Source: Campylobacteraceae bacterium (lineage in GTDB: Bacteria; Campylobacterota; Campylobacteria; Campylobacterales; Sulfurovaceae). From it: DNA of 52,202 bases. Under the pieces are notes generated by a model that did no database searches, was not told the origin of the DNA, and saw only the letters and a list, made by a program, of their open reading frames with translations. A program made the translations under genes and the position numbers. Below, piece after piece: positions 14,003 to 38,309 of the stretch (positions within the stretch are counted from its first letter, which is position 1; every line of letters begins with the position of its first letter). The stretch spans positions 1 to 52,202 of the forward strand of contig JALWMP010000074.1 in the NCBI GenBank assembly GCA_026996165.1. The letters are read 5' to 3'.

Positions 14003-14092
14003 AATTTAGTTATGATATTTTAGAATAAAATATAATTTTTTTGGTTATTATTCTTTTTGGATTGTAAAGAGCTCTACAAAGGTATAAGAAGA

Positions 14093-15421
14093 ATGAGTAG
14101 TAAATATTTAGCAAATGGTACTATAATAGGTGGTCACTATAAAATTATAGATGTTTTAGGTGAAGATGATTTTGAAATTCTCTATTTAGTGAAAAATATC
14201 CATCGGGAGGGGAGCTTTTTTGTTATAAAAGAGCTTTTTTTAGAGGTATTTTCAGAGAGAAAAGGTAGTAGTGTAGAGACAATACCTGAGGCACAAGGGG
14301 TATTCAATAAAAGAAAAGCTGAGATTATAAGAGAAATAGATAATAATCTTCATCGAAGATATATTAAAGATGAGATTAAAGTTTTTGCTTACTTTGAAGA
14401 AAATAATACTATTTATAGTTGTATGGCATATACTCCTAATGCAAAAGTAGAGGCTTATTTACAGTTTGAGCCTAAAGAGGATACAAAATTACCACGTTTA
14501 GAAGAGTTGACTCAGATAGTAGAGGAGAAGAAAAAAAGCTCTTCTGTAGTTTTAATTGGAGTTGTTTTATTAATGGTTGTAGGTGGTTTAACTTTTGCTT
14601 TTAATCAATATGGTGATAAACTAAAAACAACTGCACTTAATATCTGGAGTAGTGATAAAAAACCTATAGAGTTAAATACTACTCAAGATAAAAACAATAC
14701 AGTAATATCCACTACTAAGAAGAACATTGTTGAGGTAAATAGAACCCAAGCTGATAAAAAGATACCAGAGAGTTCTAAAACAGAATTAAATGTAACTAAA
14801 ATTATTGAGGACAATAAAGTAGAAGAGGCAAATATAACTAATAAAAAAATAGTGGATTTACCTAAAAAAGAGCTAAATATAACAAAGCAAAAATCTCTAG
14901 TGATTGAAAAAAATATAACAACAGATAGTGTAGATAGAGACATAAATATTACTAAAAATATAATAAAAGTAAATGATAGCAATATAACAGATAAAGAAGA
15001 TAATAGGAGTATTCAAAAAGATAGTAATTTAAGTGAAATATTTTCAGAGGCAAATTTAAAGAAGTTTTTAGATAACTATATGAAAATAACAGCACACTCT
15101 TCATCTAAAAAAATCATGAAGCTTTATGACAGTAAGATAAAAAGATATTTTAAATTTAAAAATATAACACCTGCAAAAGTTGGTAAATCAGTTCGTGCAT
15201 ATAATCGAAAATGGAAACATAGAAATTTTAAACTATTAAATTTTAAAGTTTTAAAAAGATATAGCAAAAATGGAGTAAACTATTGTGATATTAAGACCCA
15301 TACTAAATGGTATGTATCTAATTCTAGTGGAAAAAGAGGAGTAGGATACTCTAAAGGCTTTATGACTATTAAAGATACAAAAAATGGATTTAAAGTAAAA
15401 GCAGTTTATGGAATTAAATAA
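14093..15421 (+). CDS. Degenerate Ser/Thr-kinase N-lobe - TM - sequon-rich linker - NTF2-like domain protein
   Basis: GHYKIIDVLGEDDFEILYLVKN..FVIKELF..FEENNTIYSCMAY resembles a PknB N-lobe with no catalytic C-lobe; TM VVLIGVVLLMVVGGLTFAF; C-terminal ~110 aa NTF2-like. ORF extends to 14057 (TTG), but the ATG at 14093 is preferred. Confidence 0.65.
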   Translation: MSSKYLANGTIIGGHYKIIDVLGEDDFEILYLVKNIHREGSFFVIKELFLEVFSERKGSSVETIPEAQGVFNKRKAEIIREIDNNLHRRYIKDEIKVFAYFEENNTIYSCMAYTPNAKVEAYLQFEPKEDTKLPRLEELTQIVEEKKKSSSVVLIGVVLLMVVGGLTFAFNQYGDKLKTTALNIWSSDKKPIELNTTQDKNNTVISTTKKNIVEVNRTQADKKIPESSKTELNVTKIIEDNKVEEANITNKKIVDLPKKELNITKQKSLVIEKNITTDSVDRDINITKNIIKVNDSNITDKEDNRSIQKDSNLSEIFSEANLKKFLDNYMKITAHSSSKKIMKLYDSKIKRYFKFKNITPAKVGKSVRAYNRKWKHRNFKLLNFKVLKRYSKNGVNYCDIKTHTKWYVSNSSGKRGVGYSKGFMTIKDTKNGFKVKAVYGIK

Positions 15422-38042: not shown

Positions 38043-38309
38043 ATGAAAAAAATTATGCTAATTTCTGGAATTGTGGCAATAACACTAACAACAGCTTCAG
38101 CTGATTTCTCTTTTGCTAAGATGTATGAGGAGTTAAAAGCAGTAGCAGAGGCAACAGATGTTAACGTCTCTCATGTAAATGAATCTAACTCTACAAATAG
38201 TACAACAGTTGTAGAGAGTAACTCTACTGATATAAATAGTTCTAAGAGTGAAATCTCTTCAGATGTAAATGTTTCTGATGAGAACAATAGTCAAACTTCT
38301 ACTAAATAG
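38043..38309 (+). CDS. Small secreted Asn/Ser/Thr-rich protein
   Basis: Signal peptide MKKIMLISGIVAITLTTASA then DFSF shared with the upstream ORF; six D/E-X-N-X-S/T motifs. Confidence 0.65.
   Translation: MKKIMLISGIVAITLTTASADFSFAKMYEELKAVAEATDVNVSHVNESNSTNSTTVVESNSTDINSSKSEISSDVNVSDENNSQTSTK

Follow-up and report, generated by a model that had tools for sequence, protein, structure and literature searches.

Bacterial PglB-type N-glycosylation enzymes modify D/E-x-N-x-S/T sites (extended sequons), and the role of N-glycans on bacterial proteins is poorly understood. The known acceptors CmeA, CmeB, CmeC and HgpA each have one or two such sites (PMC7683400, PMC6025236). R331 of Campylobacter lari PglB has been proposed to bridge to the acid at -2; some relaxed PglBs retain the equivalent of this residue too, so the Arg alone is no guarantee of a minus-two rule (PMC4894442). 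The PglB of Sulfurovum lithotrophicum is counted among the identified oligosaccharyltransferases (PMC6025236). A literature search, which covered few subscription journals and thus gives weak evidence, found no natural sequon arrays in Campylobacterota.

The window analysed here, a whole stretch of 52,202 nucleotides, encodes a 442-aa protein with the following features:

14093..15421, + strand: whole gene, 442 aa, ATG start; half-kinase, transmembrane helix, sequon linker and NTF2-like domain
14093..14500, + strand: predicted cytoplasmic domain related to the Ser/Thr kinase N-lobe (from identity to the kinase L017, Foldseek and alignment)
14546..14602, + strand: single transmembrane helix spanning residues 152-170 (19 residues, hydropathy 2.75)
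14669..15034, + strand: array of 11 D/E-x-N-x-S/T sequons in a linker predicted to be disordered, residues 193-314
15026..15418, + strand: C-terminal NTF2-like domain, predicted periplasmic (from Foldseek and the model)

The 11 pentapeptides reported for this array in an earlier note on this DNA (ELNTT, DKNNT, EVNRT, ELNVT, EANIT, ELNIT, EKNIT, DINIT, DSNIT, EDNRS and DSNLS) are all present in frame and in the order given there, with the described Asn-to-Asn spacing of 6-17 residues and, as also claimed, without Pro at x in 11/11. Its rough background of one sequon per 1000 residues is close to the values in the protein's own genome, 0.74 per 1000 aa in cytosolic and 2.7 in exported proteins. 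In the 154-residue linker, 11/12 N-x-S/T sites are extended sequons, the lone exception being Asn294 (VNDS), without an acid at -2. From residue 325 onward, in the NTF2-like domain, no extended sequon occurs despite two N-x-S/T sites. A twelfth sequon of the protein, EENNT (residues 102-106), lies within the predicted cytoplasmic domain, would be beyond the reach of PglB and counts against the glycosylation reading.

Neither of the two refuting conditions named in the earlier note, loss of the acid at -2 in orthologous linkers and lack of a PglB homologue in the genome, holds. The acid at -2 is retained in close orthologues while the linker diverges. Across ten orthologous linkers, D/E occupies -2 in 82% of 84 N-x-S/T sites versus 13% of 80 other Asn, and at other offsets of the same N-x-S/T sites reaches just 0-20%, with no excess. 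This group was chosen after the sequons had been seen, and the addition of six other half-kinases leaves the share at about 72%. In the five closest orthologues 7-11 sequons persist at linker identities of 26-53%, for which a neutral decay model predicts 0.6-2.1. The positions of the array shift between orthologues, and in N-x-S/T alignment columns private to one orthologue the acid is still found at -2 in 10/16. In the tree, the root of which is unsure, a branch (support 90/85) separates the sequon-bearing rows from the others. These alignments show the acid at -2 of the array sequons to be under selection.

The protein that carries the array belongs to no family in Pfam or NCBIfam. The ATG at 14093 coincides with the beginning of the orthologues' alignment, and an in-frame TTG at 14057 could also serve as the start. 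The N-terminal 136 residues are 45% identical to the N-lobe of the true kinase L017, and the model of this part matches the PpkA, PknI and Stk1 kinases in Foldseek. The beta3 Lys46 and helix-C Glu81 are invariant in an alignment of six orthologues. The glycine-rich loop is absent (GEDDFE replaces GQGGFG); the C-lobe with HRD and DFG is missing, the transmembrane helix coming directly after the N-lobe, and a Pfam search found no Pkinase match to the 442-aa protein. Hydropathy, the Lys-rich cytoplasmic flank that precedes the helix and the types of domain suggest an N-in, C-out topology, which would place the linker in the periplasm. The whole-protein model, built on six sequences, has low mean confidence (pLDDT 56.5), although both folded domains reach pLDDT 70-90 over most of their length. 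In it, a long helix (136-184) spans the transmembrane region, and linker residues 200-300 have a pLDDT of about 24, from which disorder is predicted. The C-terminal domain has the helix-strand order and fold of the NTF2-like superfamily in the model and in Foldseek, where it matches Csd6, Pgp2, the periplasmic fragment of TraM and ARC6/PARC6. By sequence no Pfam NTF2 model matches it, and a PDB sequence search gave no relative at a safe E-value for this domain or the N-lobe, whereas the fold search gave matches.

The glycosylation machinery that the earlier note had proposed to look for is encoded in the same genome (G000), which has two STT3/PglB-type oligosaccharyltransferase genes. The product of one, on contig C179, matches C. 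lari PglB at 1e-115 and aligns to it with the equivalents of Asp56, Asp154, Glu319, Arg331 and the WWD motif present. This gene also lies in a pgl-like cluster, next to genes for a 592-aa 4,6-dehydratase, an aminotransferase, a 198-aa sugar-phosphate transferase, several glycosyltransferases and a flippase-like membrane protein; the first three we take, by reading, to be PglF-like, PglE-like and PglC-like, respectively. In the second PglB (657 residues, on the 5 kb contig C66) the catalytic motifs and the Arg motif contacting -2 are likewise readable. PglB was found in 27/34 genomes of the genus (12/13 of the good ones) and in 100/121 genomes of the family sample.

A proteome scan of 0.91 Mb, about half of the genome, covered 897 ORFs with simple ORF calling and signal peptides assigned by hydropathy only, and in this sample the 442-aa protein has the highest local sequon density. 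With this protein left out, D/E stands at -2 in 26% of the N-x-S/T sites of exported proteins versus 13% in cytosolic ones (p=1e-10), and the excess is confined to -2, other offsets remaining at background. Among proteins with <=3 sequons the values are 18% and 12% (p=0.004), and with <=1 sequon the excess is not significant; such dropping of array proteins by sequon count is a filter that conditions on the outcome. The sequence evidence matches the imprint that a working PglB system with a minus-two rule would be expected to leave. Genus g6, in whose sampled genomes (G005, G016, G026 and G035, two of them 95% complete) PglB was not found, is a natural control against which to read the sequon signal, and in a 0.10 Mb sample from it D/E occupied -2 in 3/20 exported N-x-S/T sites, a very small count.

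Other exported proteins of the same genome also carry arrays in their tails and linkers. They include a 258-aa protein with 11 extended sequons along a low-complexity segment (L099:3260-4033, - strand), a 310-aa lipoprotein-like protein with 10 (L047:768-1697, + strand) and a pilin-like cluster with 18, 6 and 5. Within the window, positions 38043-38306 (+ strand) encode an exported protein of 88 aa, without a Pfam match and with six extended sequons in its low-complexity tail (DVNVS, ESNST, ESNST, DINSS, DVNVS and DENNS). Elsewhere, an SH3-NTF2-SPOR protein (L063:2589-3581, + strand, and L029) has 2-3 extended sequons in the linker preceding SPOR, and a linker with DANTT, DANAT and EVNTT joins two cytochrome-like domains (L107:1580-2191, + strand).

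Many genomes of the genus contain half-kinases; outside it, 200 genomes of the order searched with the N-lobe produced a single weak match (E<=0.001). The named relatives of the 442-aa protein come from Campylobacteraceae MAGs and uncultured Sulfurovum. The gene neighbourhood is conserved in close relatives, with genes that we read as presumably an HD-domain gene, an ispA-like gene, hemA and proS. Distant half-kinases (L007, L010, L011, L013 and L019) and full kinases have 0-1 sequons and no array; since they mostly coexist with PglB, the array is a clade trait, and the architecture can do without it. We considered whether array and PglB strictly go together across genomes and abandoned the idea, as exceptions occur in both directions: in G118, G122 and G123 (70-82% complete) the array is present and PglB was not found, and in G102, G089, G112, G044 and G108 PglB is present and the array absent. 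G064 (95% complete) has neither. The full kinase L017 has a Pfam Pkinase match of 1.9e-38, a transmembrane helix and a C-terminal domain as in the 442-aa protein. L017, L018, L020 and L021 all combine a full Ser/Thr kinase, a transmembrane helix, a Pro/Thr-rich linker and a matching NTF2-like domain, and no half-kinase was found in these four genomes. The full kinase follows a PP2C-like phosphatase gene in L020, apparently also in L017.

An AT-rich gene tends towards Asn, Ile, Lys, Thr, Glu and Asp; a charged, disordered linker might then yield sequons incidentally, and here its DNA is 25% G+C and its residues are 13% N, 18% S/T and 16% D/E. Composition-preserving shuffles of the linker, however, yielded a mean of 0.56 sequons, with 0/20,000 reaching 11 (p<=5e-5), and random DNA of matching base composition is expected to give 0.085. 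The position profile, with the acid fixed at -2 and missing from Asn without S/T at +2, refutes composition as the sole cause, to which we attach next to no probability. The recurrence of similar motifs (ELNIT, EKNIT, DINIT) every 12-15 residues or so is what the duplication of a short unit might leave, the sequons then being copies without selective maintenance. Yet a search found no DNA tandem repeat beneath the array, every sequon is a distinct 15-base sequence with codons that vary from copy to copy, the alignments suggest no block duplication in orthologues, and at the observed divergence neutral decay would have erased most sequons, which makes such an expansion very improbable.

Rather unlikely, though of real weight, is the explanation that the sites are glycosylated and the array forms no stalk, serving more generally to ward off proteases or to aid solubility and having arisen because flexible tails and linkers tolerate sequons. 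The arrays in other exported proteins and the movement of positions among orthologues favour it; the count of 7-11 kept in close relatives and the place of the array in a membrane protein, with a folded part on either side, speak against it, neither point being decisive. We consider it likely that the linker sites were selected as a cluster of acceptors for the cell's own PglB and that the linker works as a glycosylated stalk. It is probably a densely sugar-coated periplasmic one, because the array is dense, the sequons are kept in close relatives despite the changed sequence, and PglB is encoded.

Under this stalk reading, the protein would insert N-in, bringing the linker to the periplasmic side, where many of the 11 linker Asn would receive from PglB a lipid-linked glycan that the pgl-like cluster makes. 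The glycans may give the unstructured linker an extended shape, solubility and resistance to proteases, and as a stalk, a role with which the disorder prediction is consistent, it would keep the NTF2-like domain at a distance from the inner membrane. On the cytoplasmic side, the half-kinase without a catalytic lobe would probably be a docking or signalling module. A wider proposal, which we put forward tentatively and hold at somewhat below even chances, is that in the Sulfurovum-like clade a receptor kinase became a catalytically dead half-kinase on a mucin-like N-glycan stalk, with the number of sequons selected and their position free, and that such arrays are the lineage's general way of building periplasmic linkers and tails. 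A sequon number kept while positions move would give a direct handle on N-glycan function, and the linker predicts that glycan density matters, not a particular site. In addition, the uncultured lineage is a natural source of dense acceptor arrays and, alongside them, of two PglBs.

Among known proteins, the membrane Ser/Thr kinases L017 and L020 share with the 442-aa protein the cytoplasmic N-lobe, one transmembrane helix, a linker and the NTF2-like domain, but the 442-aa protein lacks the C-lobe and with it the catalytic and activation residues, and the linkers of the full kinases, unlike its own, are Pro/Thr-rich and without extended sequons. PpkA-like kinases have the kinase fold in common with its N-lobe. 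The cell-shape peptidoglycan enzymes Csd6 and Pgp2 resemble it in the fold of the NTF2-like domain, at 12-14% sequence identity, whereas their carboxypeptidase domain is absent here. With the PglB system of Campylobacter jejuni and Helicobacter pullorum the genome shares the extended sequon, the PglB catalytic residues, a pgl-like cluster and the location of sites in regions that are, here by prediction, flexible. In contrast to the known acceptors named above, 11 sites fall within about 122 residues of one linker, which is far denser; the array is an unusually dense variant of the known PglB system and the densest target in the half of the genome that was sampled.
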